Shown piece by piece: positions 25,843-63,600 of a stretch of 64,000 nt of DNA. Under the pieces are notes generated by a model. It was not told where the DNA came from. It saw only the letters and a list, made by a program, of their open reading frames with translations, and ran no database searches. The stretch is taken from NCBI GenBank assembly GCA_017506865.1, contig JAFCMP010000096.1, positions 1 through 64,000 on the forward strand, read 5' to 3'. Position numbers and translations under genes: made by a program. Origin of the DNA: Tribonema minus (taxonomy: Eukaryota; Sar; Xanthophyceae; Tribonematales; Tribonemataceae). Numbering within the stretch: the first letter of the stretch is position 1; each line of letters starts with the position of its first letter.

Positions 25843-28800
25843 TCACAACGGCTTGGGCGCCGCCGAAGCGGCCAACAACGACGGCTTGAATGCAAAATCC
25901 AGATCCAATCCCCGCATCCCCCCCTCCCGCGTCACCGGTTTGCTCCCCAAGCCCATGCCCAGTGGCGTCGACAGCCCGCTCCTCAGGCCGCCGCCCGCCG
26001 TGAGCGGCGACGGCGGCGCCTGCGCCACCGCCGTGTCGCCGCTGCCGCCGCCGCTGCCGCCATCGTCGCCGCCGCGGCCGCGCTCCGCCAGCAGCGCGCG
26101 CAGCCTGCTGACCTCCGCGCGCTGCATGCTGATCTCGCGGTCCTTGGCGTCGAGTGCCGCAGAGAGGCGCAGCGTCGCGCCGGCGTCCGCGGCACGCGCG
26201 GCGAGCGCGCGCGTGTTGCCGCGCGCCAGCCCGCCGCACCTGCCGCCGCCGCCGCCGCGCAGCGGCAGCCCCGCCACCGCCGCCGCCGCCGCCGCGTCGG
26301 TGCCGACGCTGACGAACGCGCCGCCGCCGCCGCCGTGGGTCGGCGGCAGCAGCACAGGGACGCTGCTGGACCCGCGAAGGCCGCCGCTGCCGCCGCCGCC
26401 GCCACCGCCGCCGCCGCTGCTGTTCTTCAGTGGCGCTCGCCGAGGTTTGCGACGTGCAATGACATGGCCGCCGCCGCCGCTGCCCTCGCTGGGTGTGATG
26501 CCCGAGACATCGTCATCGCCGCTGCCGCCGCAGCCGCCGCCGCCGACAGCGCCGCCGGCGTGCGCGGCTGCCGCCGCCGCCGCCGCGCGCCGCAGCAGCA
26601 GGCACTCGCGGCGCAGCGCGTTGCACTCCGCCAGTAGCGCGGCGTTCTCGTCGAGCTTGAGGCGCTCGCGTCGCGCCGCCGCGCGCTCCACGCCTGCCAG
26701 CTTCTCCTCCAGGTCGCCCTGGCGCCGCTCCAGGAACTGGCGCTGGCGCTGCGCGTCCAGCGCGCGCTCGGACGCCTCCGCCGCGTCCGCGCCGCCGCCG
26801 CCACCCGCCGCGTGCTGCTGCTGCTGCCGGGCGCCTCCCTTCACCCCGCCGCCGCCGCCCGCGCGCCGCGCCCTTTTGGCGGCGGCGCCGCCGCCGCCGC
26901 CGTCGCCTTCGGAGCTGGACGCGCTGTCCTCCTCACGCGCCGCCGCCGCCGCCGCCGCGTCTGCGCCGTCGCCGCCGCCACCGGCACCGCTAGCGGCGCG
27001 GCTCAGCTTCCAGGCGGCCTTGTCGCCGCCGTCCGTCGCGCCGGCGGCGCCGCCGTGCTGGCGCGTGAGGCGGCGGTACAGCGCGCGTACGGCGATCTCG
27101 AGGTCCTTGGGCGCGGTGATGTGCGCGAGCGCCGTGATGTCGCGGCGGAGCGCCGCCACGGCGCGGTCGCGCGCGCGCAGCGCCGCGCGCAGCGCCGCGA
27201 TCTCGTGCCCGAGGCCGCCCGTCTTGAGCTCGCGCTGCTCGAGGATGCGCGCCACTTCCTGAGGGGGCGGGGGGGGGGAGGGGTTGAAGTTGAAGTAACA
27301 ACAGAGAGATGAAGGTGGGGTATCAGGACGTAGGTGAAGTTGGAGCATCAACGTGGAGTTGAAGTATGGGTTGATGGGACGGGCTCGGCGCAGATCTCTT
27401 GCAAGTCAGCCCCGCACGGCTGTGTCAAGGTGCGTTGCGTTCGCCACGAGTGCCACGCACTTCTGCAGGTGGGCATGAGCGGACTGAGACCTGCGCCTTT
27501 TCTCCTTAAACTCCCCCACGAGCTCCTTGTACATGGCGCGGATGTGCGTCCCCCGTGGAGTCAACTACTTCAAGCCGGCATCACAACTTGAAGTTGAGGA
27601 ATGGGGAACCGAACCGCCTCACCTTCTTCTCCTTGAACTCCCCCACGAGCTCCTCGTACATTGCGCGGATGTGTGTCTCGAGCCCCTCGATGTGGCGCGT
27701 AATGGGGCCGCGCTCCTCCATAAGCTGCTGCAGCCGGTGATCCAGGACAAACCTGTGGCCAGAATGCGGCGAACATCATGGTGCTGTCATCAGTGACTGC
27801 AGCGGAGGCTCATCAAACCCTAGCGCTGCAAGGCCCGACCCTAATGACCCTCCCTAACCCTAGACCTATATCGGGCCGCGCTCCTCCAAGAGCTGCTGCA
27901 GTCGGTGATCCAGGACAAACCTGTGGCCAGAATTCGGCACAGGCGGTGGTGATGTCATCACTTGCTGCAGCAGAGGTTCATCAAGCAGGCTCATCCAAAC
28001 GTTAAACCCTGCAAGGCCCGGCCCTAAACCTCCCTAACCCTAGACCTATATCGGGCCGCGCTCCTCGATGAGCTGCTGCAGCCGGTGGTCCAGGACAAAT
28101 CTGCAGCCAGCATGCAGCAGAGGTCATGGTTACGTTGTCAGTTACTGCAGCGGGGGCTCCGCCAAACTTTAACCTAAACCCTAACCCTACCCCCCAACCC
28201 TACGGGGCTTTCTCCTAACCCTCGCCCTGCCGTCAAATCTTTGCTCCATCATCAACTGCTGCGGACAATGGTACAGGACAAACCTGCCGCCAGCATGCGG
28301 CGGACATCATGGCTGTAGCAGAGGCTAATCAAGCCATAACCCTAGGCCAAACCCTCATCCTCCCTAACCCTAGGCCTACATCGGGCCATATTCCTCCATG
28401 AGCTGCTGAAGCCGGTGATCCAGGACGAATCTGCAGCCGTAACGTGGCAGAGGCCGTGGTGACGCCATCAGTTGCTGCAATGAAGGCTGAGCCAAACCCT
28501 GATCCTACGCCCAACCGCTTGACAATTTCAACTTGAAGTGCATGGCGGCGCGTCACACCTGAAGTTATCCAGCGTGAGGTTGTTGGAGCGCAGCTCGAGG
28601 ATCGTCTTCTCCTTCTCGGCGAGCGTCACCTCGCGCTCTTGACAACTTTAACTTGCGGCACGTCTCACCTGAAGTTGTCCAGCGTGAGGTTGTTGGAGCA
28701 CAGCTCGAGGACCGTCTTTTCCTTCTCCGCGAGCGTCACCTCGCGCTCTTGAAAACTTCAACTTGCAGCACGTCTCACCTGAAGTTGTCCAGCGTGAGGT

Positions 28801-31800
28801 TGTTGGAGCGCAGCTCGAGGATCGTCTTCTCCTTCTCGGCGAGCGTCACCTCGCGCTCGTGCCAACTTCAACTTGCGGCACGTCTCACCTGAAGTTTTCC
28901 AGCGTGAGGTTGTTGGAGCGCGCAGCTCCTTTCTCCTTGACAGCTTCAACTTGAAGCGCGCAGCGGCACGTCTCACCTGAAATTGTCCAGCGTGAGGTTG
29001 TTGGAGCGCAGCTCGAGGATTGTCTTCTCCTTCTCCGCAAGCGTGACCTCGCGCTCGTGCATGTGCGCCTCCAGGTGGTGCATGGTCGCCTCGAGCTTCT
29101 CGCGCTTGCCGCGCTCGAGCGCGTACAGCATGTCGCGCGCCGCGCCGGAGCGCTGCACCTCCGTCACGCGCTTGCGCAGCTGCCCCTCGTTGGCGCGGCG
29201 CGCCTCGAGCACCTGTCGCGTTGCGGCAGCAGCGACAAGACATCAGTAAACGCGACAGAGAGGTTGCTCCGCTCTAACTACTTGACACGCATACCGTGTC
29301 ACATGCACGGTCAACAGCGTGATGAGTGCACCGCCGTCACGCGCTACGCAGCTGCCCCTCATTGGCACGGCGCGCCTCGAGGACCTGTTTGCGAGGAGGC
29401 AGCGACGGCCTATGACGTCAGTTGCTCGTGAGAAGGGATGGATCTCTGCGACCTCTATGCAGTACTCGACATGCAAGTTCAACAATGTAATGCCGGAGCG
29501 CTGCACGCGCTTGCGCAGCTGCCCCTTGTTGGCGCGGCGTGCCTCGAGCACCTGTCGCGTTGCGGCGGCGGCAGCTGCGGCACATGAGTCATCGCCACAG
29601 AGGGTCTCTCCACATTAATACAGTACTCGACATGCAAGTTTGATGATGTAATGCCGGAGCGCTGCACCTCCGTCACGCGCTTGCGCAGGTGCCCCTCGTT
29701 GGCGCGGCGCGCCTCGAGCACCTGTTTGCACGGAAGCGGCGGCGGCATGGTCACCCGGGAGAAGGGAGGGTCTGTCTACATTCCCTGCAGTACTTTATTT
29801 TCTTCCGCTTGAGGGGGAAACCCCTGCAGGACTTCAACATGCGACTTCAACAGTGTAACGCCGGGAGCGCTGCACCTCCATCAAGCGCGTTGCGCAGCTG
29901 CCCCTCGTTGGCGCGCCGCGCCTCCAGGGCCCTAGTAAGGAGGCGGCGGCGGCGGCGACCAATGACAATGCTCATTCACAAGAGGAGCGTCGCACTCCTG
30001 CAAGTACTTGACGTGCAAGGTCAGCAGCGTGATGCGCACGTGCGTCCCCCGCGCGCTCCCCCTTGCCTGCTGCAGCTTGTTGGTGTTCTGCCGCTGCGTG
30101 TGAAGCCCCCTTTCCGCGGCCCGATGCGATCAGTACTTCACATACTCTATCGCTCGCCCTGTCGCGCTGGCCATCAGCGAGCGTGCCCCACCTCACCTGC
30201 TGCAGCTTGTTGGTGTTCTCGCGCTCCCCGTTGAGCTCCCTTTCCGCGGCGAGCATGAGCTGCTGCAGTTCCTTCTCGTACTCCTCCTCCTGCTGGTCGA
30301 GGACAGTCTTGTACACCTGGCGCGTGCAAGGGGGAAGGGGGGGGGGGGGGGGGGGTCACAGAGAAGGTTGTGTCAGCGTCACTGCGTCGGAGTGAGCGCG
30401 ATGCGGCTCTAGACTCACGAGTCAGACTCACTCAGGCTCATCTTCAAGTCGCTCCGGTATTGTGCGTTACTGTAGCGGTCGCCTGTTGCCATGATAATAA
30501 GCGCATTGGTAATAGCATACCAGCAACCCCGTAGGACTGTCAGCACGAGCTATAGTCATAGCAACGATGAATTTGTAACCCTCGCCCTAACCCTCAGCCT
30601 AACCTGACCCCCCTAACCTCCCCAACCCTAAGCGCAAGTGTCGAGTCAGGGTGGGCAACGGTATGTTTGGCGCTGCACTTTGGAGCGCCGCACAAGGCGC
30701 CGCCCGGGCGCGGCGCGCGCACGCAAGCGCGTGCAACGCAAAACAGACCAAGCCACGGCGGTCGCCTGCTGACGGCGTGCCACTGAGCGCCGCCGACGAC
30801 GCTGCTGCTCGCACTTCACATCGCGCTCCGCGCACGGCGCGCGCAGACTGCTGCCTCTCCAGCGCAGCAGTGCCTTCGATCGCGCACGGCAACAGCACTG
30901 CTGCAGCCACGCCCCGGCGCGACGCGGCACATACATATCTTGTTGAAGACGCGGCGGGCTGCCGCTGAGTGCTGCGCATCAGCGCCTCAGCGCTCGATAG
31001 CGCCGTGTGCGCAGTGCGCCCACATTCGCCAGCGTGGCAGCTGCGCGCGTCAACACACGTATACAATGGTGACGACGCTGTCGCGGCCACATCCCTGGTG
31101 CCACTGTCTCACGCACGCACACATACACATTGACAACACTGTCATAGTCACGTTGCTGGTGGCAGTGCGGCGGTCGAAAGAGGGCACGAGGGTAGGTAGC
31201 TACCTGATCATTGCGCATCAGTGCCTCACAGGTAGCAGTAGAGGTAGCTGTAGTCGAGTGGGAGCGGGATGCGCTTGGGCGCACCCTGTGTGCGCTGGGA
31301 GCCAGTCGCCAATGGCATGGTGCCTATATTGCACATATTCTATACGATACAGGTTGTGTTGCCCCTCAAGCAAAAGTAGATCAAAGTACCTGATCGATAT
31401 TTATAAAAAGTACCTGATCGTTGTACTTCTTGTCCTCCTGCAGGCGCTCTATCTGCAGGCGCAGCTCGCGCTCCACGTGGCGCGCCGCCTGCTCACGGTC
31501 GCGCACGTCACGCTCGTGCTGCGCTGCCTGCGCGACGCATACATACGGGGGGCAGAGGTAAGTCAGCCAAACCTACCGTCATTCAGCTCGGAACCTGACA
31601 CAACTCGTTAGTGTTTGCGCTTGCAGCGGCACACTCGTGCTGTGCCGCCTGCGCGATGTGCGCGCGCAAGGGGGGGGGCAGGGGGGGGGCACGGCTCTGT
31701 CAGTGAAAGCTCTGGCAGTACAAAATTCGCCAGTACGGGTGACTTAGGAATAGGGGTAGGATTAGGTGTTGTGCAGAGCTCGACCTCACCGCGAACCTTG

Positions 31801-34800
31801 CTCAACACAGCGCGCCGCCGCGCACCACGTGCACATGGGAGATACATTTCTGTCTGTTCAAGGTCCAGCGTGGCAGTGGAACGTCTGTCCTATTCCTAAC
31901 CCTAACCCTAAATCTAAGAGTTCCTGTCGTCCAGGAACCGAATTAATTCAGCTGCGCTCAGCAACCCTCACCCTGACCCCTGTTCAAATTCTAAGAGGCG
32001 TGCACGCGCGCCCCCATCAAAACCTCACCCTCACCCTGGCTCAATCCCTACATAACGCGCACGCGTGCCCCCGATCTCTGGCGCTGCGCCGGTGCTGCGC
32101 CCCGCTAGTGCGAGCACGGAACAGCAGTGAACTGCGTGCGCGCAGAAAGACCCTGTCAAAACTTAAGCGCACCTGCAGCCTGCCATTTCATTTCACAGTC
32201 TTGCGCTGCTGTCGCGCTGCCGACACAGAGGCGCTCTCGGCTGTCAGCATTGAGTAGTACCGTACCCGTGTCTTGGAACATTAGCGCTCAGCGCCATTGA
32301 CTCTACTTGTGCACGCACTGTGGAATGAGTCGTTGCGGCACTGCTGTCCGCCTCCTCGCTCAGCGCGTCGTACACGTGACCGCTATGCCAGCTCGTTGCT
32401 CAGCGCCGACTCTACTCATCTACTCACTTGCGCCTCCAACAAGACATTGCAACGCGCCGCTTGGCGCGTCATGCCTGTGACCCGTTGCTCAGCGGTGACT
32501 CTACAACTCTACTCGTGCACTCATACGCTCACCAGCGCGCCTCCGGCAAGCCATCACACTGCTGCTGCGCAGGCTCCACCTCCTCGCTAAGCTCTTCACG
32601 ACTCCATGACTCATGACTCAGCAGTGACTCTATTACTCTACTCATGACTCTACAACTCTACTCGTGCACTCATGCACTCGCCTGCGCCTCCAGCAAGCCG
32701 TTGCAGCGCTGCTGCACCGCCTCCACCTCCTCGCTCAGCTTGTCATAGCGATCCAGCTCCACTGCGAGACGGTGCTCGTACTGGTTCTCCAGCTCTTGCA
32801 TCATCTGCACCAGCGGAAGAGAGCAGGGGACACCCACAATGTGACCTTCCACAAGCCACGACCCTGACCGCCACGCAAAACCTCAACGTCAACCTGACCA
32901 ATGCGAAGCGCGCCGTCGCCAAACAGACTCGCTGCGCGCCAGTCGGGACGCGCAGTGCGGCGCAGACAGGCGAGTCCAAGTGTGCATCGCCGACCGCTTC
33001 CGCGCGCCGATGCGCAAGCGTTCGCCGCTGAGCGCGCAAGAGTCGTGCGCACGCGCTGTCCCCCATCAAGCCCCGCTACGCGCCAGGCGTGCACGGCCAG
33101 GGTATGTAGGTATCAGTGTGGACCTCGACGTACCGCGTGTCTTGCCTGCCGGAACCGTTTCTTGTTCATTCTCGCGGCCAAATGAGTCATACCCAAGCCC
33201 TCCTGTGCAGAAAACGTGTGTGTTGGCATACATGCGCACACTGGGCGTGCCGCACGTCCTGCATGCCGCCTTATCATTACAACAGTTGTGGGGGACAGGA
33301 CGGGCATGTATGTAGGTATTCGCCCCCTCACCTGCACGTGGCGCATGTCCTTCCTGTCGAGCTCCTCCGCGTGCTCGCGCACCGCCGTCTCGTGCTTGAG
33401 GTGGAGCTCCTCGTACCGCACGTCCTTCGCCTGCGCGATGGCGCCGAGCGACGCGGTGAGTGACAAAGTTCGAGGTGCGTTGCAGAAGTGTCATGCGCGC
33501 GTGTACAGTCACCCGCTACAGTCACCCGCGACGCGCCGTCAACTGAAGTGAAGGCGTCTGCGCGATCGCGCCGAGCGAATGCGGCGAGTCACAAAGTTCA
33601 CGGTGCGTTGCGGAAGTGCCATGCGCGCCGGGTGAGAGGGCCGGTGGGGCGTTGCAGAAGCGTTGTGCACATTCGGTCACCCGCAACGCGCCGTCAGCTT
33701 GAGTGAAGGCATCTGCGCGATCGCGTTGCGGCGACGACGTTCGCGGCGTGGAGCAGAAGTGCCTTGCGCGCTCAGCGACAGGGCTGGCTTTGTGCTAGAG
33801 AAGTGTCATGCGTGCTTGTACGGTCACCCGCAACGCGCCACCGGTGTGAGTGAAGGCGTCTGTATCACATAGCCACCAGGACACCGTCACCTGCGACGCG
33901 CCGTTGACTGGGGCGAGGGGAGCTGCGCCGCGGCCACGCTCAAATGAATCTGCATGACAGCGGTGTTCATGAACCGGCAGCTGCACATGTCCGTCTCCTT
34001 CGCTGCGGCGTGGGGCCTGGCAGATCCGCTGCGGTTGCGCCGCCGCACGACATCTACAGTACCCAGCAATCAGACCACTTTCCAGCGATACTAGTTTAAG
34101 CATGTGGCAGGTCAACTTCAACTTCCTTCCGCTTCCGGCAGTAGTGACTTTCCAGCAAGTACTAGTTGGAGCGTGTGAGACCTCACATCCTGTTCCAGCA
34201 GTAGGTGCTCAAGCAGGTGGCTCTGTGACCTCAGCACGTGGCAGCGCTGTAGACCTCAAGATGGTACAAGTCGTACGTAAGCCAATGTGTAACTTCAACA
34301 AGTGGCAGGGTCACTTCAGCTTCAACAAGGCAACATACCCCGAACAAACGCCGCGCGCCGACGCGCGCGAGTGCAGCTGTATCTCCTTCTCCTCCGCCGC
34401 GGCCGCGTGCGTCCTTCACCCACTTCCCCACCGCGACATGCAGCGATGCAACTTCAAGTTCAACATGCGGCACACCAAGCACAAAAGCCGCGCGCCGCCG
34501 CGTTGAATAGTTGTCACACTACAACAGACAGCGCCAGCGGGCATCTGTGCGTACCACAAGACTACATACAAGACTGTGCACCTGCAGCTGCATCTCCTTC
34601 TCGTCCGCCGTTGCGCGCACGTCCTCCGCCCACTCCACCGCCGCAACATGCCAGTGCAACATCAACTTCAACAGTGACACACCCAACACGAAGCCGTGCG
34701 CCGCCGCTTTTGAGACAATATTTATACTTCAGAAGTACACTATATAGCATCTGTGCCCACCACATGAATATGTGCAAGACTGCGCACCTGCAGCTGCATC

Positions 34801-35781
34801 TCCTTTTCCTCTGCGGCCACGCGCGCATCCTCTGCCCTGTTCGCCGCGGGGACGCAGTGCAATTTCAACTTCAACATGCATCCGCCACTCCGCCACCACA
34901 ACATGCAGTGTAACTGTAACTGAAACTTCAACATGCAACACACCCAAGCGCGATGCGCACCTGCAGCTGCATCTCCTTCTCCTCTGCGGCCGCGCGCGCG
35001 TCCTCCGCCCACTCCGCCGCGCGGCGGTGCGTGGCGTACTCGTGCTCGCTGCGCATGTCTTCGAGCGCCTTTTTGAGGTCCGAGACGAGCGCCGACTGCT
35101 CTTCCACCTCCTCCTGGCTGACAAGCACTGCCTGCGGCGTGTGCACGTGTAGGGTTTGAAGTAGGGAGTGAAGTGGGTGTTGAAGTTGGGTTTGTGCATG
35201 CCGTCGAGCGCTGCCTGCGGCGCGTGCACGTGTAGGGTTTGAAGCAGGGCTTGAAGTGCGGGGGGGCGTAGTCGTGTGCGCTCTTCTTTTTGGAGGGTAG
35301 GAGGGTCTGGCTCACTACTGTACCACAGTTGAACAACGGAAGGAGTTAAGCACATGCGTTGCTTACTGTGATCTATGACAACCTGCGTCTAAGACCTGAA
35401 TCAAAATGTGCATCAGTGCTCAGCAAGGCCTCAACGGTCCTGAGCCATGCGCTGTCAGTACATGGTGAAGCGCGAAAGGGGTTTGAGTGTCTGTGAGCAC
35501 CCCTCTCCTTGGAGTCAGACGCGTCCGTCCATGTTCTCCAGTGTGACAAAGCAGCAGGCGCGCCACAGTGAACATGTGTGCACCACGCTTTCTTTCATCT
35601 GGCGATGCCACAGATCATGTGCGTGCACAAAGAGGTGCGCCACCGTCGCCTAGCCTTAGCAGTCCCGAGGGCAGCGTCTGCAACGAAATCTGACCATCTG
35701 AGCATCAGCATCATCAGCAGCAGCGTCCCACCTCAAGGTTGAAGGCAGTCGGGTCCGCGTCCCACGTCGCCGCCGCCGCCG

Positions 35782-35812
<31 letters not shown>

Positions 35813-36729
35813 GCCGCCGTCCCTCCCCGTCACGTCCACGCCCCTCTCCATCTGCCGCACCGCGAGCGCGAACACGGCGCCGTCCTCGCCGCAGCTGAAC
35901 AGAAAGCGGTCGTCGGGCGACAGCCGCAGCTCGGTGACGGCGCCGCTGTGGACGCGCACCTCGTAGTACGGGCGCGCCGCGGCGGCGGCGGCGGCGGCGG
36001 CGGCGCTGCTGCCGGCGGCGGCGGCGGCGGCGGGCGGCAGCGGCCACGCGTACGCGCGCACGGCGCCCGCGCTAGTCCCGCAGAACAGCCCCGTGCGCGA
36101 GTGCGCGAGGGCGAGCGCCGTGATGCTCTCCACCTCCTCGCCCGCGGCGGCGGCGCCTGCTGCGGCAGTAGGGGTTACACAGTGCTCAGCAGCAGCAGCA
36201 GCGCCAGTGCTGCTCGTAGCGAGCTGCGGCGGCGCCGAGCGCGCGGACCGCGGCCGCTGTGCACGTCGTATCAGGCTCAGCAAGCGAGCACACGGCCTGC
36301 GAGTGACTCGCGCACGCAGCACACATCTGATGCTCGGCACGCGCAGCTGCGTCTGGCGCTAGCTGCAGCCGTCCACGTCGCACCGCTGCTCGCGCGCGCG
36401 CACAGCCCGCGTCTGCTCTGCGCACCTGTCCAGACGTCATCGCGCAGGCACACATGAACACCCAGCGGGCGCTACGACTGAGTTGAGGCAGACAATCAAA
36501 ACCATGATAACTGCAGCAGCATCGCCGCCACCGCCACGTACCGCCGCGCCCCCCGGCAGCAGCATCTCCCCCGCCGCCGCCTCCACCCCCACCCCCCCCC
36601 TCATGCAGCATGACATCCCGCAGCCCAGGCCTCCTGTCATCCCCTCCGGCAGCGCGGCTGTGCCGGTGGTGCAGCACGACGGCCGAGCCGCTGGCGGGCG
36701 CCGCCGCCGCCGCCGCTGCCGCCCCGCCA

Positions 36730-36761
<32 letters not shown>

Positions 36762-39809: not shown

Positions 39810-39995
39810 GATTGCTTGTAGAAAACGTACCGTGTGCAAAGGCTACTGCCGAATACGATTCATATAGACGGCCGATATTGCTATTGCTGGCACACACCTG
39901 TGCTGATATGGTGTGATATTGCAAGCCGTTTTTCGAGACCCTGGTTCAACTGTTCTTTTCGATGATGAAGATGCACTCTCGAGGTACAGGCTGCA
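39810..39995. promoter_or_regulatory. Probable bidirectional promoter, CFAP57/ankyrin A
   Basis: There are 186 bp between divergent start codons. It includes AT-richer sequence (ATATAGACGGCCGATATTGC and GGTGTGATATTGC). No specific motif was assigned. Confidence 0.45.
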
Positions 39996-42949: not shown

Positions 42950-45900
42950 CTTCCCTGGAGAACCTTTTCTCCGCGCAAGCGCCAGTTGCCGCCGCTGGGA
43001 GTAAGGACCAGCAAACCAAGACGGCACGCCAGCTCTTGGCAGGCCTCTGGGAATGTCTTCCCTGCAAGAACTGTGTATATGGGCAGCGTAGGCGTCGGCT
43101 TGCCTTCCAGCTCGCAGTAGAGCAGGAACAGCGCGCGCTTGTCTGCTGCAGCATTTGAGTCCTCCCCTGCGTGATCACAGTTCAGAGAGCAGGCCGCGAT
43201 CGGAAAGATCACAAAGTGGGAATTTTTTCATCATTGGCACCCCCTAACGCTGAACTCAGGTGTTTGTCATGCGCTCCTGCAAAGAGCAATGAAACAAACA
43301 TTGCGCTGTACGCCACTGAAATGCTTTGTGGGCCTGTACTTGTGTGTGCGCCTTGAACCGGTGCAATGTTGGCATTGCAGGCACTTGGTGGCTGCACAGA
43401 TGGCAGGTCGAGGAGCTGCAAGGTCAAACTTTGACACACGGATGAACACGAAACAGTAGGAATGCGCAAAGTGCACGCTATGTATTGCGGCACTGCATGT
43501 TTTGTTTTCCCTCATGTCCAGCGCATTACTTAGTCATGGGTGTACAATGCAAACGTGCTCTGATGAAAGGGTTTGTTGGAGTCGTCGTACTCTTGCTGGG
43601 CACGAGTACACTTCAACAACAAGCTCCTAGGGCACAGCGCAGACTAGGCTGCTGCGTTGACGCAAGCTTTTCGATTGCATAGGCAACCCGGCCTCCCTTG
43701 GGCCTTTGTAAATACAAGTCCATACGTACACTTCAACAACAGCAGGAAACAATGCAGTCGAGACACCCACACATAACACAGCTGCCGGCGCTGTGCCATG
43801 TGCTTATCGGGGCTACTGCTCTTGTTGCTCTTGGAGCAAGACAATGACAATGATCTTGCAACTGCCATCTGAAACAGGTGACACTCTAACATCCTCAAAA
43901 AGAAAGACAATGAAAATGATCTTGCAACTGCCATCTGAAACACGTGACACTCCAACATCCTCAAAAAGAACGAATACGCTGCTGCTGGTGCTGCAGCTAC
44001 TGCTGGCACATCAGCGCTACACAGTTTATGCAGGCATCACTGTCCACCGTGAAGCAAGCTCAACGTCGTTGCTGCAGGTGCATTTTCAGGGGCATTTTCG
44101 CGCCTTGAGGCCGTTGCGCGTTGCAAACAAGTAAATTTACTGAAAATAATTTTTTTGCAACTAACAAAACCATGCTATGTTGTATCATGATTGGTTTGTC
44201 AAACTCCAATCATTACATACCGTCACATGAGATGTTGCCTTGTTCACGACGATGGCCTTGTTGCCATAGATGATCCCATCGAGCTCGCCAACCACGTACG
44301 TCCGCTCAGCGCGATCGCCCCTTTGTCGCAGATCCCATGCACGTTGCAGTTCTGGGAAGTCCTTAGCGTACTTTGCAATGAGCTCCGGCTGGTCGTCCTG
44401 TCCAACCGTGGTGAGCACCAGCGATTCAATTGAACATGTATATATATTTTTTCTCAGATGGTGCACCACAAATTGGTCACATGAAGACCGGATGCGCCAA
44501 GATGCTGCGCAACACCATGTCCATGTGACCGCATGACGCAACATTACCTGTGCCTCCAAAAAAATCAGCGCACGCTGCAGCAGGAGCTCGTATGACCTGA
44601 ACATGAGCACGCCTGACCGCATGCGCAGCCACAGCAATGGCGTGAGATTGGTCACGCGGCCAGGTATACATGCTGCTGCTGCAGGGGCTGCGCCGGAGTG
44701 CAGAATGGAGCAGGCACAATCACTGCGCATCACCGTGTTGCGTACGTCGCGCTGACAACAGCTAAATCATCGTAGCGAACATGAATCCTGATGTGCCGTC
44801 ACTCCCAGCAATGATGCGGATGTACAAGCTTCAGCCATGCTCACCAGATCCACGACGACCTTCTCTCGAGCCGACACTGAGTTCACCGTGCTTTTGCAGG
44901 AGTCTGGTGATGTGCGACTGCACTGCCAGATTGACCTGCAGCACACCACATCAACGGCAGCGCACACACAGCAAGTGTGTCAGCGGCGCATACCCGCTGC
45001 AGTATGCTCCGAGTCACCGCTACAAGTTACATGGCAACTATTGAGCAACAACATCGGATCCGCAGCTCACGAGCACTGCACCTGGTAAGCAAACAAAAGC
45101 TCAGCATTTGGCAGTTACATCTAGAAAGTGCGTACGTGTTGCACTGACAGTGCTTTCAGTACTTTTTATTACACGTGGAGCGCGAATGCTGGGCTGTGTT
45201 GCGGCGCCGGTATCCAAACTCCTAGGGCACAGCGCAGACTAGGCTGCTGCGTTGACGCAAGCTTTTCGATTGCATAGGCAACCCGGCCTCCCTTGGGCCT
45301 TTATAAATACAAGTCCATACGTACTTTTTATTAATTCTCGCTCAGGGCGCGAAAAAGCCCCTTTCAGTACTTCCTCCGTTAGTTTTTGCAATCTTATCCA
45401 ACGCATCAAGCCCACCTTGGGGCTGCTATAAATACAAGATCATAGGTACTTCCTCCGTCTCGATTTATTTGACAGTTCGCTTTTGAAACGCACGTCTGGG
45501 AGTGTATCTAGAAGGCACCACACTGATACAAACTTGAGTTATCCAAATGAGATAGAAGTAGAATTTTAGGCCCTTTCACATGCACTACTTGACTATAGAA
45601 CCGCATCTCGAGATGCTACAACTATGTGAACTCAGGGATTGGGCTCAAGGAAGAAAAGAAAGGAAGATACTGCAATTTGATTTGAAGTCATTTGGCTTGC
45701 GCGTAGAAGCGCAAGCGCCAGTTGCTGTTACTCAGACTGGAAGCGAGGGCTTGTGGACCAGCCGTTCTTTCTTCACGTTGTCTCACAAGCCAAAGTAAAG
45801 ATGGTACCGAGTCATGTACCGGCCACTTTGACGTTTTCAAGCGCATGACCACAACTTCTACCCACAGGTGTGCATGCCATCTCTGCCAATCAGGTACTAC

Positions 45901-48580: not shown

Positions 48581-49122
48581 AGCACACCAGCTTTACACTT
48601 CTTGCTGCTTCCATGCAGTGCGCCTTGACCAAACGTGCGAGGAAGCATATGGGCGCTCCAAGCGGAAGGGTCAGCTTTCCTTGGATTTTCGCGTCCTGGC
48701 TTCGTTTTGTTCGGCCACTCTGCAGGAAAAAGGGAGCACGGCACTACAAGGCGGTGCGCGAACAGCGCACACAGGGCGCAAGCAACCTTGCAGTCGTCAA
48801 TTACTATTGTCACTGTGGTCCTTTCAGCCGGTGGGGTCATTTTTGGGACCTTTCCAACGTCAACCAACCGCATAGTGCACCGCGTCCCTGCTGGGGTGAT
48901 GCAGTGTGCCGGATGAGCGCTGTCACAGCGAGTCGATAGGCTGTCATACGAGCTGATGGTGACAGGCCTCTGGTTTTACGGGTCGAAAGCACTGAACAAA
49001 GTGTCTCTTGCAAAAACTTCGGGAAAGCAAGGTGAGACACACTCGGCGGCGGCGGCGGGAACTACACACACCGGCACTCTAGTAGCGCGCGTCTAGGAAG
49101 CGCGGATTGGTGTGCTGCCACT
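48581..49122. other. Intergenic before ankyrin B
   Basis: The left part is a duplicated 3' flank (see 42099-42949). The right part is the presumed promoter of ankyrin B. No motif was assigned. Confidence 0.4.
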
Positions 49123-52100
49123 ATGTTTACCGGAATTACACCTTTGCAGTATGCGGTGTACAGGGGCAAGGTCGACACGATTCCAGACATCCTGGAGCGG
49201 TAAGTGCGCGTTGTTGTTGATTGCGGGTGCGTGGCGTTTATGCATCGAAGCCTCGAAGAGCGGCTCGAGCGACGGTTCTATGAACCAAGCCTGCCGGGTG
49301 GGCTGCACGCCTTCGGCCTTGCATCGGCATATTTAATCTGCAGCGGCAGCAGGTGTTTGCGGTGATTTCATCCGCTGTCTGGGTTGCGTGACATGGGCCC
49401 TGTGAGCAGATTGGACACCACAGCTCCGTCCTGCTGAATGTAGCAGTCAGAAGCAAGAATGCCTTGTGAGCTGCATCAACATGTGCACACAGGCATCACT
49501 GCTCGCTTCTCGCACAGTGTCGTTAGCCCAAATTTCCCGCATGCAAGCTACCCTCAGGCTGCAGTCCTGGCTCAGTGAGCACGACCAGGTTTAGCACCAC
49601 CATGGTTTACCTGCTGTAGAACCATCAAAATCCTTCATCACTTTCACCAGCACAAACTTCATCGGCAAGCATCTGACAAGCACCTGAACAAATCGAACAG
49701 GCCCATACGCAGCCACCACTAGTAGCACTTTGCACACAACCCCACTACGCGACGCGCGCCCACATCACTCCGAGTCAGACTCTGAGTCCCCCCTCCCCCC
49801 TTCTCCCATCAAACACACCGTGCAGCTACCCCAATGACATCAACACCACGGACCAATACGGCAACACAGCGCTGCACATGGCCGCCTACCGCGGCGCGTG
49901 CAGAACCATCGACCTCCTGCGCGAAGCCGGCGCAGACATGCAGGCGCGCGACGCCCAGGGCAACACGGCGCTGCACGCCGTCGCCGGCACCGGCGCCGCC
50001 GACGCCGCGCAGGTGCACATTGTGTCTTACTGTGTTGAGGTTGCCAGTCGAGGTTTGCAGAGTGGTCAGAGATGCTGTGAAGGCCGCGTGTTGAGGTTCG
50101 TAGTGTCAAGGCACTCATGAAGTGCGTGAGCCATGCACGCGTCACTGGTGCGGTGCCGGCGCCGTCACTCTTGCAAGGACGCGCACGCCGCGGCGCGCAT
50201 GACGCCAGGACCGTGCGATCGCCTCAGTCCTGGCCAAATGGCCACGCACTCGCTGACGGCGGCAGTGGCGCTGCGCATGCTGCGAATGCCATGCACGAGT
50301 CCGCATGTACGGACTGTGAGGTCTGGACAAAGTCTGGCAGTATTCACGTGCTGTGATTGCCACATCACCGCAAGTCTTGTGCCATTCAAGCCCACTCAGC
50401 GGCCCACACTCACACTGCAACGTTAGGGTACAGTTATCTGTCTGCCGTCGCCATTGCTGCCGCCGCTGCCACCGCCGCCAACTGCCGCCGCCGCTGCTGC
50501 TGCCGCAGCGGCAGCTGCAGCGTTGCTGCATGTACCAGGTGCGCGGTTCCGCTGCACGGTCGTACATGCCAACACGAATTCTGCGTCGCCATTTGCTGTG
50601 CCCGCGCACTTCGGCACAGCCATGGCGACCCATCCACCATGTACTTTCCGTTCATGCTCGCTCAGGGCGCAGGAAAGCCCAGATGATTGATATCAAAGCT
50701 CGCAATCTACGCGTCACGTGACAATCTGAGAGCGTCTCAGTGACCACTGTGTACCTACCTACCCCGCACAGGCGCTGGTCGACTACGGGTTGAGCGCTGG
50801 CGACCGCAACAGCGATGGCAAGACCCCTCTGCAGCTGTGCATGGAGTTCTGCGCACCTGCCAAGAAGGGCGCCATGCTGGCGCTGCTGCGCGTGGCGCTG
50901 GACGCGGAGGCCAGCGCGCCCAGGGGTGAGACGGGTACGTATGCATCCCCATTTTCAGGTATCTTTGCATGTACGTACTTCCCCATAGCTGCTGCGCGTG
51001 GCGCTGGACGCGGAGGCCAACGCGCCAGGGATCAGGCGGGTACGTATGTATCCTCACTTCAGGTATCTATGCATGTACGTACTTCCCTAGAAGTATGCTG
51101 GTGCTGCTGCATGCAGCGCTGGAGGCGGAGGCCGGCGCCACCAGGGTTGAGACGGGTACGTATGTATTGCTTCTCACATTGGGGGCTATGCATGCATGTA
51201 TGCGCAAGTGCTGATATAGCAGTGCTCAGATCATATGGGTATGCATGTATGCATGTTTGCTGACATGGCAGTGCTCCATATGAGATGAGCATGCATGAAT
51301 ATGCATGATTGCCGATGCAGCGCAGCTCAGAGAGCACGAGGTGCGTGTGGACAAGTAGGTAACGCAGCCGCTCACATGAGGTGCCATGATACGTATGACT
51401 GCACACCGCAGCAGCACCAGATGAAACGCCAGCACAGCACCGCTAGGGCGAGACTGCTGTGCGCGACGGCCGATGCAATGCTGCTGCAGGGGTGCACGCA
51501 GATGCAGCCTGCTCCCTAATGCTAATGCTAACCCTACCCATAGCGCTAGCCATTACCGGCAACTATCCTACATGGTGCTGATTTCAGTCTGATTTGCCCA
51601 GCGCTTCAAGGGCTGACCATACACATCGTCCATGCCTGTCACCTCAGGCGATCACGCGCGGCGTTCCACAGAGCTGCCGCCGGGGCAGCCCGTGGAAGCC
51701 ACAGCGCCAGAAGTGCCGCCACCACCGGCGCAGCACGCAGCCGCGGCGGAAACAGCAGCGGCAGCGGGCGCGGCACCTGAGCAGCTGCAGCGAGAAGCGT
51801 CAGCAGTAGAGCCATCTCTGCAGCATGAGCCGGCAGCGGCAGCGGTGACATCGCCGCCGCCCTCGCCGCGGCAGCCGCCGGCGGCACGCCAGGCGGCAGC
51901 ATGCGCAGCAGCAGCGGCAGCAGCAGCAGCGCCACCAGGACCAGAAGCGGCGACAGCAACGGCAGCGCAGGCTACAGCAGCTGAGGCTCCCACGCGGCGG
52001 AGAGAGTCGCTCCACCGGCTGCCGCATTCTGCGCCGCCAGCTCTCGATGTCGCCGCAGCGACGACGCAGGAGGCGGACGCGCAGCGGCACGCCGCGCTGA

Positions 52101-52474: not shown

Positions 52475-53160
52475 GGGGGAAGTTCAACTTGAAGTTTGTG
52501 GTTGAAGCTGCAGATGTGTGGATGTTGCCGGTGGTTCTGGTGGTGCCGAGGCGCAGAGGCCTGCGCTGCGACGCTCTCCATCTCTTGGCTGCATGCGCCG
52601 CACTGGCAGCAGCGATTTGGCGCTCTGCGTTGGCAGCGCTCACCATCCTGCAGCAGCGCTCAATCTGCATGTGTGCCGTGGATATCGATCACTACGACTT
52701 GAGTTGCCAGCGCGTACATGATAGCAAGATGGCACTCGCATGGATGAGGAAACGGGAATGCTGGGCAGCTTATATTTGGCTGCATGTATATACCACCAAA
52801 TTTTTCCTCCAAGACCACCTGATGGGATGATGTGCTTCGGCTTCACGTTTTTCTCTGCCACCACTTGTTTTAAGTTGTCACAATGCCTCATTGCGCATCC
52901 TGTCAAACCATCCAGTGATGATAGCCATAGAAAGTGGCAGGCCCTCGACCGTCAGCGGTTTCCTGAAAAGTGTAACTGTCACTTCGCTGCGCCTCAACTC
53001 AGTCAAACCAGAGTTGCTGGTCAGTCAAAATTTCGGCGAAAGCGGGCGGAGCTGCTGCTTCCTACAGCGCCAACCAGTGTAATGTACAGCATACTTGACG
53101 GCGGAGGTCGCGCCATCTATGATTCACTGAAGCGCTAGACACGCGCCTCGGAGAACAACC
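52475..53160. other. Intergenic, no gene recognised
   Basis: An open frame at 52740-53138 (132 codons) has no recognised family and ends just before the start of the next gene. It could be chance or a small uncharacterised gene. Confidence 0.35.
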
Positions 53161-56100: not shown

Positions 56101-56887
56101 CAAGCTCAACCTGCCGCCGCTCGCCGCCAATGCCAATGCGCTGGAACTCGCATCGGAGCTGCTGACGCCTAGGACCGCGCCGTTGGGGAGCGCGCCGTCG
56201 AGCCCTGCTGCTGCCGCCGCCGCCGCTGCCGCCGCCGCGCGTGGCGACGACGACGGCGGCGATCTTCCGCGGGTTGCGGCGGCGACCACGGACGTAACGG
56301 ACGACACTCAGGGTGTGTTTCACGGCCAGAACCCGAGCTTCGCCGGGCAGCACGGGCGCGAGATGCTGCGCGCTGCGACGGCGGAAGCGGCGGTGAGCGC
56401 GCCGCCGTCGCCGTTGCTGTCGCTGCGGGGCGCAGCGGCACCGGCGGTGGTAGCGGCGGCGGTTGAGGCGGCGGCGGGCACTGGCGCCGCTGCCGCTGAC
56501 GACAGGGGGCTCGACACGCAATCATCGATGCCGCCGTGGAGTGCGGCGGGCAGCGACGAGCTGGCGCTGCCGCTGCCGCAGCACCAGTCGCCGCGGTCAC
56601 GGCTCGGCAGCCCACGCAGCAGCAGCGCTCAGTCTCCGGGCAGCCCCAATCGGCGGCCAGCGGCAGAAGATGGTGACAGCACGACTGACGGTGGCTCTGC
56701 GTCACCGCCGCTGTCGCCGCCGTTGCCGTCGGCGCAGCAGCAGCAGCAGCAGCGCGGTCCGCCCAGGGTCGTCGTCAGCAGCCCGCGCAGCGGCGTCGCC
56801 ACCGCGCTCGCGTCGCCGCTGCAGTCGCCGCGGGCGTCTGCGGCGGCTGCCGCGTCCGCCTCCGATGGCGGCGCAGGGGCACCGTGA
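53161..56887 (+). CDS. Cys-rich ectodomain plus about seven-TM membrane protein
   Basis: Exons 53161-53324, 53948-54230, 54681-55082, 55399-55551 and 55973-56887, phases 2, 0, 0 and 0, give 638 aa. The N-terminus reads MAGENCVYSCSHPVYGGV with further cysteines (CVCAAPGY, YPSC across the first splice), like an EGF-type module. No classical signal peptide is visible. Hydrophobic stretches follow at AVHAFILLLSVACIAHG, LEAAWGVVTAAYFAA, FPAFALVQVLFVTSSI, GAAAAVLCAGAAAACAAG, LRGVALVVAALDAFLINVA, ADAILIVFAAMLLFGA and LVYFALVYGFLPGLW. A 300-residue low-complexity tail rich in Ala, Ser and Pro is probably cytoplasmic. The topology resembles a receptor but I do not recognise a family. The exon 4 donor is either CAG/GCAAGC (used here) or GTGG/GTAATG. 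Confidence 0.72.
54263..54385 (+). repeat. (GGT)n microsatellite
   Basis: About 40 imperfect GGT units in intron 2 of the 7TM gene, directly after the donor. Confidence 0.92.
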
Positions 56888-57613
56888 GAGAACCGTGACA
56901 GCCGCCGGCGGCCTTTGGGCGTTGGCGCGCTCCTGCATGAATTGTTGTTCAGATTTGTCGTTCCCATCCGCGCTCGCTGTGCCAGCAAGTAAGCCAACTC
57001 TGTCCATTCTCTGTGCTCAGATGCTGGCTCCGCTGAATGCTGTCTGGTCTGTATGTGTGCAATGGACAAGCGCATGGGTGCAGTGCCAGTCTCTGCAGCA
57101 GCACGTCCGTCGGTCATTGCCTGTCGACTGCTGCACCAGTGATTGTGGACCCTGTACCAGACCTCTGGCATGGACACAAGATGTTGCCGGTAAGAAGGGA
57201 AACTTAGACGATTCGACTGCATGCGCGCAGAGCGCAAACAACACATGTGTAAAGTGGCAGTACCCTGCAGAAGTGCAGTGCTCAAAGGCAGTGGTGTAGG
57301 AAGCAATTTGCGCTTGATGTGCATCGGCATTGCTCCGGTGCACCGCCGGTGCGCGCGACGACAGCATAGGCAGCGCGCAGCACCACGCCTCAACCCGCGC
57401 AAGCGCACAGCAAGTAGGATTACGCTGTGTCTGTATTACTGCATCACCGTCAACAAACCCGCGCACGCGTTGTGTGTTCGCCCGGCCGCCGCACGACACC
57501 CCCCTCCCCCTGCCTCGCCGCAACGCAAGGCAGCTTTGCCAGACGCGGCAAAAGCGCCAGCAGCGCGCGCGATTTCCTCTTCTCCGCAGTGCGCTGCACT
57601 AGCGCCGCAAACT
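56888..57613. other. Convergent 3' ends, no gene recognised
   Basis: Lies between the 7TM gene (plus) and VPS35 (minus). No exon or RNA gene seen. Confidence 0.45.
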
Positions 57614-60600
57614 TCAAAGAGCGACGGCCGCGAACTTCAACCGCAGCTCCTCCGGGACGTCGGGGTGTGAGCGCTTGGCGACGATGCTGGCGACCGTGTT
57701 GCGGAAGAACACCTCCGCCTGCATGGGCGCCAAGGGGAAGGGGGGGGGGGGGGGGACGATGAGTTGGACTGCAGTGGAAGTTGCAGTCTGGTGCAAGAGA
57801 GGCCATTTGAACTTCAACTTTAGAGTTTGCGGTGCTCCTGCCGCGCACCATGCCCCTGTCATTCGCCCGTCTCGAATCATATAGCTGGGTGACAGAGCGC
57901 GGCAAGCGCGATGCGGCGCGACGTTGATCTCTTTCATACTTCTACATGACACATTATAGCGTGCGTCATCGGCCAGGCTTGGAGGGACAGCAGCAGCGCT
58001 CCGGGGGCCGCCCCCAGCGTGAGCACGGCATGTGCACAAGCGCGCGCGCTCGCCTCAGTCTGCGGAAAGCCGGGGGTGTGCTTGATCAACAAGGAGCTGC
58101 TCGCATGAGGTGTACTTTTTCAGCGCTAGGTTAGGGTTAGGGGAGCGTAGTGCTTGATCGACGCAGATCCTGCGCTGGCGCTGTGGAGACACTGTTTGCG
58201 GCACGGCATTTTGTGTAACAGTAGCGCACTGCAGAGAAAGCAGCTGTGCTCTGCCTCGGCAAGGAGATGCTCGCCTTTGAGAGGTTGCGGCAACGGAATG
58301 CAAGTCGCAAGCGCATGCGCAGTCGGTAGACGTTGTGGTGGAGGTCTGCTATGCAGCAGGATGGCATCTGGTGTGTAGGCATCCACGAATCTCAGGTCAG
58401 GGTTAGGGTTGGCAGAGCGACGCTGCATCGCATCAAATTTGCATGGCTGCTTCCATGTGACATTCGCATGGCTACTTCCATGTGACATGCTCAAGAACAC
58501 TGCCTGCGACTTGCAGCATGCGCGCCGACAAGAGTGGCGGGCCACAAGCAACGCGATCAAGATTGAGGGCTGCCACTTCAGAACACAATTGCCCACCAAT
58601 GCACTGTACCTTTGAGCCGCGCCAGTCATTTGGTACCGCCTGCACTTCGCCCTGACGCTTGCCACCAGATACAGGTAACAGAGGACACACCTGCGCATTG
58701 GCCAACTTCATCTGGTGACGCACTTGCGCATGGGCTAGCTTCACAAGGTGACACAAATCTGCACCGTGACCGCGTGGCTAAGTTCATGGCGTGACGCACC
58801 TGTGTCTTGGCTGGCGATGGCTCCATGGATTGAAGTTGGTCCCGGACCAGCTGCACCAGCCTGAGGTGTCAACGCAACCGACGCATCAAGCACCTCGTTT
58901 GGAAAACAATCTGCACTTTGTACGCTAACGCTCAGCAACAGTGACGCTTGGCAGGTGATCAGCAATCGCTGCCTGCGCGACGCGCAACATCAAATCAACC
59001 AATCTCCTGGGAAGCGCGCCGGGACATACTCGAAGCATCGGCAGGTTGACCAGTAGGCAAGTAGACGTGCGTACTGCCAGTTTTGCACAAGCTCAGCAGC
59101 GCAGCGGCCGCCGCACTCAGGGTATGCATGTAGCAATGGCCAGTGGGGCAGCAGCAAGCGAACGGCAATGCGGCACGACGCTGGCCAAGTAGGCAGAACC
59201 ATGCAAATGGCACAATGGCACAGCGGCGCACGACTGCGCAGGGCCTGAGCGCTGCCGCTCACGCGACGAGCGGACGCTCGCCTGACGCTACAGTAGGCGG
59301 GCTAAAGCAAACAAGCTAGTAGCCCTGATCCTATTATCTCGCCCTCGCCCTAACATCTCGCCCTGTGTAGAACCAAGCCCCATTCCGGACGAGCTGAACT
59401 GCGCTGTGCAAGCAGCAGTGCACCTCGCACTACCAGTTTCAAGAGCGATTCATCGTTCAAGTGCAGGCAAGGCAGGTGACGCTCCCACCTGTCACTGCTC
59501 AGCAAGCCCTAAGCATGGGGCACGCAATGCTACCACACCTCATCATAAACCTCAAGTAATGGCTCACCTAACCCTAACCCTAGCCCTAACCCTAACCCTC
59601 ACCTGGAGATGTACTTCTCCGCCACGTCCGCGTTGCCATGCTCAAAGTAGTACACGTACAGGTTCAGCACCTGGCGGGGCGCGACAGCGGTTTGGGGGCG
59701 GTGTGAGCTGCATTGACCGCGCTTGGAACGCAAGCGTACCAGAGTGAGCGCAAGCAGGCGGTGTGAGCTGTATGGAGCGCATCAGGACACTCATGTACAT
59801 ACCAAGTAAATGATGATGAACAAGGGCAACAGAACAGCAATCATGGTTACGCCCACGGCTGCAGTTGACGCACATGCGTGCAAGCGCAAGCAGAAAAATT
59901 GTGACTGAAGCTACAGAACATGCATGTGGCTGGACCCGCAGGCACATGTAGAGAATAGCAAATACACGACCGGGTGGGCGACAGTGCTACAAGCGCCACC
60001 TACTCCTGAAGTCATTTGTGATGGCGACTGCACAATTCCAGCCTCACCTGCTCGAGTTGGTTGTGGACTACAAGTGTACTGTACGTGTACTCCGTGTGCA
60101 CACGTCTGGGTCCGCAGTGCGCTCCTCAACATGATGATTGAGTGCTCATCATGGCAGATAGTCGTGCCACCCAGTCCTAACCCTAACCCTAGCCCTAACC
60201 ACCTGGGCTGCCGGCCCCTTTCTTCATGCAGCGAGCACCACGAACTACCCCCAGTATCTATTTGTGTGATGGGAGCCATACCCACCATCTCCCCCTTACT
60301 CGCACTGCCGATTGGAGCTGAGCCTGCATATTGACTTCAAGTATTGATGGCGCACTTCACCATTGACGTGCTCCCATGCTCACATCCGTGCCTCCCACAA
60401 GGGCTAGCGCGTGAACTGACTTCACGTAGCCGGAACGCATCATCCCATGTAGCCCAAATAATAGACCCTGGTGGAAACCTGACCCTAACCCTTATTCATG
60501 GCCCCCGGCGCTGATGGCAAACCCTAGCCCCAGCAATGAGCGACGCTCACCTCCACGAAGAGCACGACGTTGGTCCCTCCAGCCATGCACCCGTCTGTGG

Positions 60601-63600
60601 CGCCAGCGCATGAGAACCATAGAGTGAGACTATATCAGAGCTCGAATGAGAGAAAAACAGAGCAAAATGCTGCAATCAGCGCTGTTGAAAAACAACCACA
60701 AACCTTGCGCTGTGATGTACGCGCGCTTGGCTGGCCGACTGCCATTGCATCAACTGGCAACGCGAAGAGCATGTGGGAGGCGCCCATGCCCGCAGCAAAT
60801 GTTCACCGCAAGGGGTGAGCTGGAGGCACTCAAGGACACGGTGCCGCGCGCCCCCTGAACACTCAAGGACACGGTGCCGCGCGCACCCTGAACAGTTGAA
60901 GTACACTCTTGAAGTAGATATAGGCCGCGAGGTGACGCAGCGCACCTGAGCATTGCAGCGCGCCGAGAGGACGTTGGAGGCCCCCCCGTACCCTCGCTTG
61001 GAAGCACTTGAACTAGAGATAACTTCATGAGGTGACGCGCCGCACCTGCGCTCTTGAGCGCGCGGTGGAAGAACTCGACGACGCGGCGCGCGCACACCCT
61101 GAACAGTTGAACTACATTCTTGAAGACAGATAGGTCGCAAGGTGACGCGCCGCACCTGCAATTTTGAGCGCGCGCTGGAGGCACACCAGGACACGGCGTG
61201 CGCGTCCCCTTGACAATTGAAGTACATTCTTGAAGTAAAAATAGGTTGCGAGGTGACGCGCTGCACCTGCAATCTTGAGCGCGCGCTGGAGGCACTCGAG
61301 GACGCGGCGCGCGTCCCTCTTGAAGTGCGCGCCGGCGTCGTCCTCCGCCGCCCAGAAGAGGTGGCTGCACATCGCCACCGCCCTGTTCAGGTTGGAGTTG
61401 CGGACGTGAATGAGTCGGTGAGAGACTGATCATGTCAGCTCACAGTGCTGTAGAATATGCAACTGCCAGGCCCGCATGGATCGTGAGCGGTTGATCATGT
61501 CAGCTGTACTGCTTTAGCCTGTCATGACAGGTGGCTGCACATTGCAGCCACCGTGACCTAGTTCAACTTGCGGGCACAATCATTGTCAGCTGACGTTGCC
61601 ACACTCCTGGCGATAACACTTGTCAACGCGCATGTGTTGCCACAGACCCTGCTGCAGTCGTAGTCCTGACCTTAACTTGTACCGTAGCCCTAAGCTGTCA
61701 CAAAAGTTCATGCTGGGTGACTAGGGTCAGCACACTCGACTGGAACTGGCACCACGGGCAGAAAGGCCTCGTAGTCCTTTGTAGCCCTTGCAGCCCCCCC
61801 CTTTGCGCACGTACACACTGCAACATACTTGCTTAAAGTACATACTTCACGTGTACTCTCCCTCTGCATGCCGTGGCCGGCCATCGTCGGCCGCACCGCC
61901 TCACTCGAGCGCCAACTCGACACAGTGGCTCAAGACTTGAGGCTCATCCCTGCGGTCTGAAGTACTTGTATTACTTACCTGGACTGATCAGGCTTCCGCA
62001 GCAGGCGCACGCCGTACTGCGCCGTCTTCGCCGCCAGGGCCTCCCAGTCCGCCGCGTTGAAGCCGGAGCACGATGTCAGCGCACCGACGAGCGCTGTAAC
62101 CGCCGACACCTGCGTTACAGTTACGGGATTTGAGTACATAAGGGTGCATCAGGGTTGGGGTGTGAGCAACACGCCTGGGCGAACGTGGCAGCAACTCCGC
62201 CATAGGAGAACACAGCGCAGCATGCCTCAGCTGGTTAGCTGGGCCAACGCTGGGAGCACGGCACTGGCGCAGCGTTGGCGCAGCGCAGGCGAGCATCATG
62301 GCGTAGCACGCAGCTGCGCCGCAGGCGCTGCCGACGTGCAGTGAGCGCAATTAGAACTTTAAAATGTGACATGCCTGCACTCACGGGCTCTACAGTACCC
62401 TGATCTGGTCTCTGCGAAGAGGACATGCACAGTCTCATGTGACATCCTTTTTTGCCATAAAGTAGTCCTCCTTTGGGACATTAGTCAACTCAACTCAATT
62501 TAACTCAAGCGCAGTCAAGGTAAGTACATAAACCCAGTCTCGGCTTGCCTTGCTCGCGCGCAAAAACATCAAAGCTCTGAACTGCAGCGCGTGACTCTCC
62601 TGCGCGCGCACAACTTCAATACTGCCAAGTTCAGCGTGTGACTTGCCTGTGCGCGCGCCTCCGTGAGCTCGTCCTCGTAGAGTATGCACGCCTGGCTGAC
62701 GAACTCGTAGGCAATCGCGGGGAAGCCCGCCCTGTCCGCAGCTGCGGAGCAGAGAGCGGCGCGCGGAAGGACAGGCACGTCACATGCTGACAGCATTCAG
62801 GATTGTTGAAGTGGGAGTTGCAGGCGCGCCCGGAGGTGCGCGGCGGGCCAGCGTCATAATCTCGAACGATGTTCATGAGGCATCGGGCTACAGTTCAAGG
62901 CGAACCTCAAGTGTGCGCGCTGATGCGTCTGCCGCACCAGCGTGCAATTGCGATGAGGCACATGCAGTTTAAGGGCGACTCTCCCTTTGCCCTGCAGGAC
63001 GACGGCAAAATGAGTTGAGCAACGGCAGCAGAACAAGACACGTGCATCAAACGCATATAGGGTTAGGGTTGGGCGCCACATCGCGGTGGACCAAGGGCTC
63101 TGCGCGGCGGCAGCGGTTGACGTGCCGCTGAGCGTCACCACGAGCGCTGCAAACTGCAACTTCGAAGTTGCAAGCGGCAGCGCTCACCTATGGCGCACTG
63201 CAGGAACAGCCGCAGCGACGCGGCGGGGAACATGGGCGCCATCGCCGTCACCGTCTCGTGCACAAACTGGAACATCTTGCGGCTGCCGTACTTGAGCGGC
63301 GACACCGCGGGTGCCGCCGCCGCCGCCGCCGCCTCTGCTGCCGCGGCGCCGTCTTCATCTGCACCTGGCGACGCTGCCGCCACCGTTGCCGCTTTTGCCG
63401 CCGCCACTGCCAGCACAGCCGCCGCCTGCGGGCTGCTCGCCGCCGCCGCTGCCGCAGGCGGCGTTGCCGGCGCAGGCGCTGCCGCCGCTGCTGCTTGCGC
63501 AGCCGGCGGCACAGCGGGAGATTCGAGCGCAGCTGCCGCCGCGCCGCCGCCGTCCGCCGCTTCCCCGTCCGCCGGCTGAGCCGCCTCCTCTGATGCAACT

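Follow-up and report, generated by a model that had tools for sequence, protein, structure and literature searches.

Introns in a 64,000-nt stretch of the Tribonema minus genome (contig JAFCMP010000096.1; hereafter, the window) contain tandem copies of the edges of their own neighbouring exons. The same arrangement recurs in kinesin genes elsewhere in the assembly, which comprises 158 Mb in 554 contigs. The copies are prevalent, lie in direct orientation relative to the parent exon and bear signs of neutral decay. The explanation that we favour, with somewhat better than even confidence, is that these introns grew by local tandem duplication, which is tolerated across splice sites. The finding thereby points to one concrete route by which introns may lengthen.

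Exon-edge copies in CFAP57

The densest local direct repeats of the window, where such repeats are numerous and lie 60–700 nt apart (found by self-comparison, and some also by Tandem Repeats Finder, TRF), fall in a minus-strand gene that matches solved structures, with chains named CFAP57 among the best hits. Its exons were modelled by spliced alignment, for which the splice-site weights were trained on the same genome. Of its ten segments, seven entered the analysis; the first was set aside, as were two very small segments (12 and 3 nt). The acceptor of the exon at 31512 is weak. The adjacent intron contained copies of the exon edge at 6 of the 12 junctions of six introns, namely at four of six donors (34961, 32682, 30197 and 28977) and two of six acceptors (29212 and 27752).

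The clearest case is the exon at 28977–29212, where the sequence was inspected directly. On its acceptor side, self-comparison revealed an array at 29327–29953 with four copies of the first ~63–69 nt of the exon, repeated at a period of ~173 nt and 85–99% identical over a block of 63–73 nt. On its donor side, an array at 28518–28928 (TRF and self-comparison) holds four copies of the last 38–84 nt together with the donor, at a period of 110 nt. The original prediction that arrays flank a single CFAP57 exon on both sides is thus borne out.

The remaining cases, all on the minus strand and with exons placed by the same alignment, are simpler. The last ~60 nt of the exon at 34961–35127 are copied into the following intron, where self-comparison detected copies of the exon end and donor within 34372–34851 (34372–34424 and 34575–34641 repeat 34954–35020). 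The exon at 32682–32804, which has a GC donor in the model, has a copy of its end at 32496–32593 (~58 exon nt and ~37 intron nt, paired with 32645–32740), and the end of the exon at 30197–30316 recurs at 30051–30120 (54 exon nt and 16 intron nt, paired with 30181–30250). An acceptor-side array at 27870–28500 (TRF and self-comparison) contains four copies of the first 39–51 nt of the exon at 27623–27752, along with the preceding intron end. The last 55 nt of this exon, whose donor follows 27623, are repeated at 27496–27550 (paired with 27622–27677), outside the 12 junctions tested.

Prevalence in kinesin introns

Beyond the window, kinesin motor genes on other contigs were found by family search, and 22 loci were fetched and aligned to a profile derived from kinesins of this genome itself. 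The loci were picked for several exon matches, which makes the sample intron-rich; the whole sample consists of kinesins and CFAP57. From 154 modelled introns we kept 101 with a donor score above 3, an acceptor score above 1 and flanking exons of at least 30 nt; an earlier filter had kept 86 of 114. In this main sample 26 donors, about a quarter, and 31 acceptors, nearly a third, have a copy of their exon edge in the adjacent intron; such cases come from 19 of 21 loci. A second set of 19 introns, from loci also used for the profile, yielded copies at 5 donors and 2 acceptors (4 of 12 loci).

These counts collapsed in the controls. No donor or acceptor had a copy when the 101 introns were reversed, and when exon flanks were swapped between genes, the five trials, each on 101 introns, gave junction-array counts of 0, 1, 2, 2 and 0, versus 54 in the real arrangement; the same swap in the second set left none on either side (19 introns). 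The copying of exon edges into introns, predicted originally for donor and acceptor sides alike, is therefore confirmed as real and extends beyond the window.

Repeat pairs in the 101 introns and their flanks are almost exclusively head-to-tail (217 direct versus 3 inverted), and local direct repeats cover 26% of intron bases. Introns with arrays have a median length of 793 nt (n = 59), versus 512.5 nt for those without (n = 42). This agrees with the earlier suggestion that arrays lengthen introns, but longer introns have more room for arrays, and the length difference alone is no proof of growth. The period of arrays at junctions is slightly longer than that of internal arrays (medians 133 and 113.5 nt, p = 0.045).

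Splice signals in kinesin loci L036–L055 follow an acceptor consensus GCAG/G (the slash marks the splice point), with G at position -4 in 63% of 96 introns, and a donor consensus AG/GTGAG(T), with some possible GC donors.

State of the copies

Judged by their sequence, the copies look like neutral leftovers rather than coding exons. Among 84 exon–copy pairs, differences at codon positions 1, 2 and 3 amount to 0.097, 0.081 and 0.190, a pattern that we read as a copy drifting freely beside a silently changing exon. Of the codon changes, 184 are silent, 215 are replacements and 8 involve stops, and frameshift gaps occur in 16 of the 84 pairs. Tandem alternative exons were rejected as an explanation, since stops, frameshifts and changes at codon positions 1 and 2 show that frame and coding constraint are not kept.

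Splice-site retention was scored on copies whose alignment extends 6 nt or more beyond the exon, out of 43 donor and 64 acceptor repeat pairs. Of the 32 donor copies, 24 have GT, and of the 52 acceptor copies, 42 have AG; many copies thus keep a splice site, as originally claimed, though not every one does. Selection that keeps copies as decoy or alternative splice sites would leave such dinucleotides in place, and three donors of the array at the left edge of the window tie for a high score. By our estimate, however, drift at the observed divergence would preserve GT and AG about as often, and the stops, frameshifts and changes at codon positions 1 and 2 speak against such selection too, making it very improbable. 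The copies place true and decoy splice sites in near-identical exon context, a natural series that would make the rules of splice-site choice testable with RNA, and they may mislead gene finders and exon counts.

At donor 2325 of kinesin locus L056, the first copy is identical to its source over 54 nt of exon and the 40 nt of intron that follow, and is plainly a recent tandem duplication across the donor.

Certain near-palindromic words, among them AACTTCAACTT, TACTTCAAGTA and ACTTCGAAGT, are strongly over-represented in introns, for example near 4133 in L044. AACTTCAACTT and its variants occur in 31 of the 101 introns; they were found 47 times in 75.8 kb of intron sequence and once in 11.6 kb of exon. 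We considered AACTTCAACTT as a boundary mark that causes the copies and dropped it: it lies within 25 nt of few inner copy boundaries (6 of 105, compared with 4 of 105 for the opposite boundaries), although this rate is above that at random intron places (100 of 6420; p = 0.007).

A model of intron growth

According to our preferred explanation, introns would have lengthened largely via local head-to-tail duplication of units of roughly 60–300 bp, probably landing roughly at random within introns and beside them. Duplications wholly inside exons would be lost because they damage the protein; those within introns or straddling a junction would survive because the splice site beside the intact exon is still usable. 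A unit that straddles a donor or acceptor would strand a second exon edge and splice site in the intron, with the outer splice site presumably staying in use. The stranded copy would then decay and may be amplified within the array. A large share of units would have straddled junctions because introns were probably shorter at the time. In addition, the exon block may now and then be re-copied from the exon by conversion, which would explain why it is better preserved than its flank. A candidate source of the duplications is the fill-in of breaks followed by end joining, as in PMC8355091.

Placement of arrays relative to splice junctions

Arrays touching a junction number 54 of 78, 45 of 70, 31 of 51, 22 of 34 and 9 of 18 at identities of at least 65, 75, 80, 85 and 90%, respectively. 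When exon sequence was hidden, arrays abutting a junction numbered 28 of 68, 22 of 60, 14 of 47, 8 of 21 and 4 of 11 at the same cut-offs. The analytic expectation for this case is 21.3, 20.8, 16.8, 8.2 and 4.4, leaving an excess only at 65% (p = 0.04); the simulated share with exons hidden is 0.20–0.25 at near-present lengths, and the observed share lies somewhat above it.

Two models were simulated with chosen rates, insertions and deletions being set at 12% of substitutions and unit lengths taken from the data. The constant-rate model places units uniformly per site, removes exon-internal units and conserves exons. At the 65% cut-off it gives a junction share of 0.24–0.33 in three settings near present lengths and 0.48 with introns averaging 520 nt. 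It replaced preliminary simulations in which event numbers were drawn by intron length (share 0.21–0.33). The growth model starts from introns at 20–30% of their present length and adds randomly placed duplications; its four settings give 0.57–0.87 at an identity of at least 65% and 0.21–0.47 at 85%. Junction overlap therefore exceeds random placement near present lengths, but growth from short introns also reaches the observed share at the lowest cut-off.

A mechanism that copies exon edges specifically, for example when transcribed exon borders suffer breaks or template switches, would favour junctions outright. The 54 of 78 arrays at junctions, set against 0.24–0.33 under uniform placement, are in its favour, as are the steep drop in ungapped similarity on the intron side, within ~20 nt of the splice site, and the absence of a link between exon identity and flank identity. 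On the other hand, the growth model accounts for the share at the lowest cut-off, and array copies, by eye, often have a common inner boundary and following sequence, and so spread as units. Whole-unit duplications, defined as repeats that cover at least 70% of their period, touch a junction in only 4 of 11 cases at an identity of at least 80% (1 of 3 at 88%), where the simulations give 0.26–0.51. This class, though small, is the fairest at high identity, and there is no clear junction preference in it. On this evidence we regard an exon-edge-specific mechanism as unlikely.

The raw junction excess leans on exon blocks staying recognisable. Because it shrinks with exons hidden, and because of the 4 of 11 whole-unit duplications, a junction-seeking process is not required; of the earlier claim that some process systematically duplicates junctions, the frequent duplication on both sides stands, whereas these data do not establish that junctions are sought out. 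Coverage profiles around junctions are nearly flat and favour neither view. At an identity of at least 88%, the constant-rate model predicts 20–24 intact young duplications and only 3 were observed, so most growth seems old.

Preservation of exon blocks and flanks

Several results weigh against intron growth by randomly placed tandem duplication. The growth model makes 128–143 arrays, versus 78 observed, and too few junction arrays at an identity of at least 85%; the share of 22 of 34 observed there exceeds every simulation (0.21–0.48) and is a further point for exon-edge-specific copying. At a looser cut-off of at least 75%, 11 of 19 whole-unit duplications touch a junction, above the simulated 0.26–0.51, and introns without arrays are not short today. 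The flanks raise a second difficulty. In copies with at least 93% exon identity, the flank 10–50 nt past the splice site is a median of 0.65 identical (20 pairs; random pieces of the same intron give 0.57), whereas the simulated flank identity for such copies is 0.85–0.88 under the constant-rate model and 0.68–0.80 under the growth model. Between intron copies, the exon block is 0.82 identical versus 0.67 for the flank (23 junctions, Wilcoxon p = 2e-6).

The exon part is more similar than the flank in 100 of 105 exon–copy pairs and 67 of 78 copy–copy pairs, and the unit of exon part plus flank is well preserved as a whole in few arrays (3 at an identity of at least 88%, 11 at 80%). Since similarity served to find the exon blocks but not the flanks, the contrast is exaggerated to some extent. 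The preservation of the exon block hints at two readings, conversion by the exon or exon-specific copying.

The first of these amounts to concerted evolution, in which the exon overwrites intron blocks by gene conversion or template switching, so that junction arrays stay visible as others fade; it could also act on top of growth by tandem duplication. The block–flank contrast between intron copies fits it, as does a 66-nt block that is 100% and 97% identical in two copies at kinesin locus L050, with flanks at 0.72 and 0.62. By our reading, the change at codon positions 1 and 2 suggests that ~0.09 changes per site have accumulated since exon and copy last shared a common state. The analysis revealed no direct sign of conversion tracts, however, and the similarity-based finding of copies may inflate the contrast. 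Blocks of 20–90 nt are also short for classical conversion. Taken as the explanation of the arrays, concerted evolution seems to us a little less probable still than exon-edge-specific copying.

A broader idea joins copying and overwriting: exon borders would be hot spots that repeatedly write short blocks ending in a splice site into the adjacent intron, or over older copies in it, with the exon as master template and introns lengthening by a DNA process linked to splice junctions. We hold this to be doubtful, if a shade more credible than exon-edge-specific copying.

Comparison with known processes

Intronic minisatellites are head-to-tail repeats in introns; unlike these, the units described here take in a splice site together with coding sequence from the exon edge, and the array extends into the exon.

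Small tandem duplications at staggered breaks, which arise in mouse and human cells through fill-in by CST/Pol alpha-primase and subsequent end joining (PMC8355091), offer another parallel. They too are direct, local and tens of bases long, and add DNA beside its source. In contrast to those single-event duplications, what we observe are decayed arrays in introns.

Tandem duplication that takes in splice signals is also the theme of intron gain around AGGT, as presented in PMC4974935 and PMC2891723; the potato paper of this pair also describes an 83-bp duplication inside an existing intron. In T. minus, by contrast, existing introns appear to lengthen. The idea that the copies record the birth of introns, with exon sequence around AGGT duplicated in tandem, draws on the many exons that, by eye, start with GT after AG, and on an intron at 5139 in kinesin locus L043 that contains a piece resembling the joined exons. 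A joined-exon copy, the expected birth mark, was present in only 1 of the 86 introns of the earlier filter, and donor and acceptor copies paired in 0 of 86; these counts largely refute such birth as a general cause, and we give it scarcely any credence.

Introners, as characterised at the opening of PMC9860276, resemble the present case in rapid genome-wide intron change, but they insert copies of themselves into many genes, whereas here each array comes from its own exon. Dispersed elements or introners were rejected as the source, since only 7 of the 101 introns have 60 nt or more in common with an intron from a different locus; any hit to an other-locus intron at E < 1e-4 was found for 16 of 101, in a comparison among these 101 only. 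A literature search of titles and abstract openings found no account of exon-edge arrays among the matches listed, which does not show their absence from print.

Other arrays and repeats in the window

The original prediction also named an ankyrin gene and the gene at the left edge, and both contain repeated donor-like sites within repeat copies. VPS35 and the AP2-PDZ gene, which it listed as well, were not located. In the ankyrin gene, a donor-side array on the plus strand at 50884–51167 (TRF and self-comparison) has three copies, with GTACGTATG donors after 50934, 51039 and 51155; ankyrin repeats are encoded upstream of it in the open reading frame at 49677–50117 (plus strand). The left-edge gene has five repeat copies at 33–917 on the plus strand (self-comparison), with strong donor-like sites after 88, 221, 355, 476 and 704. 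A further plus-strand array at 60860–61323 (TRF and self-comparison) carries GTGACGC sites after 60931, 61031, 61141 and 61252.

Outside intron-rich genes, at 2–14 kb and 40–49 kb of the window, local direct repeats are few (43835–43973; 43620–43729 with 45215–45324). These regions form a small and partly transposon-derived sample; the introns sampled elsewhere hold about one array per kb. A minus-strand open frame of 1743 amino acids at 8353–13581 matches a reverse-transcriptase domain, and the adjoining segment 8267–8421 is repeated in inverted orientation at 45171–45325 and 43620–43729 with 99% identity. The three repeats are perhaps retrotransposon ends.

Telomere-like CCCTAA/TTAGGG runs are scattered through the introns of kinesin loci L036–L057 and occur in the window at 59567–59603. 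The word CCTAACCCTA or its complement occurs 85 times in the 22 loci and the window, versus 0.07 expected, with 34 of the occurrences within 76 kb of intron.

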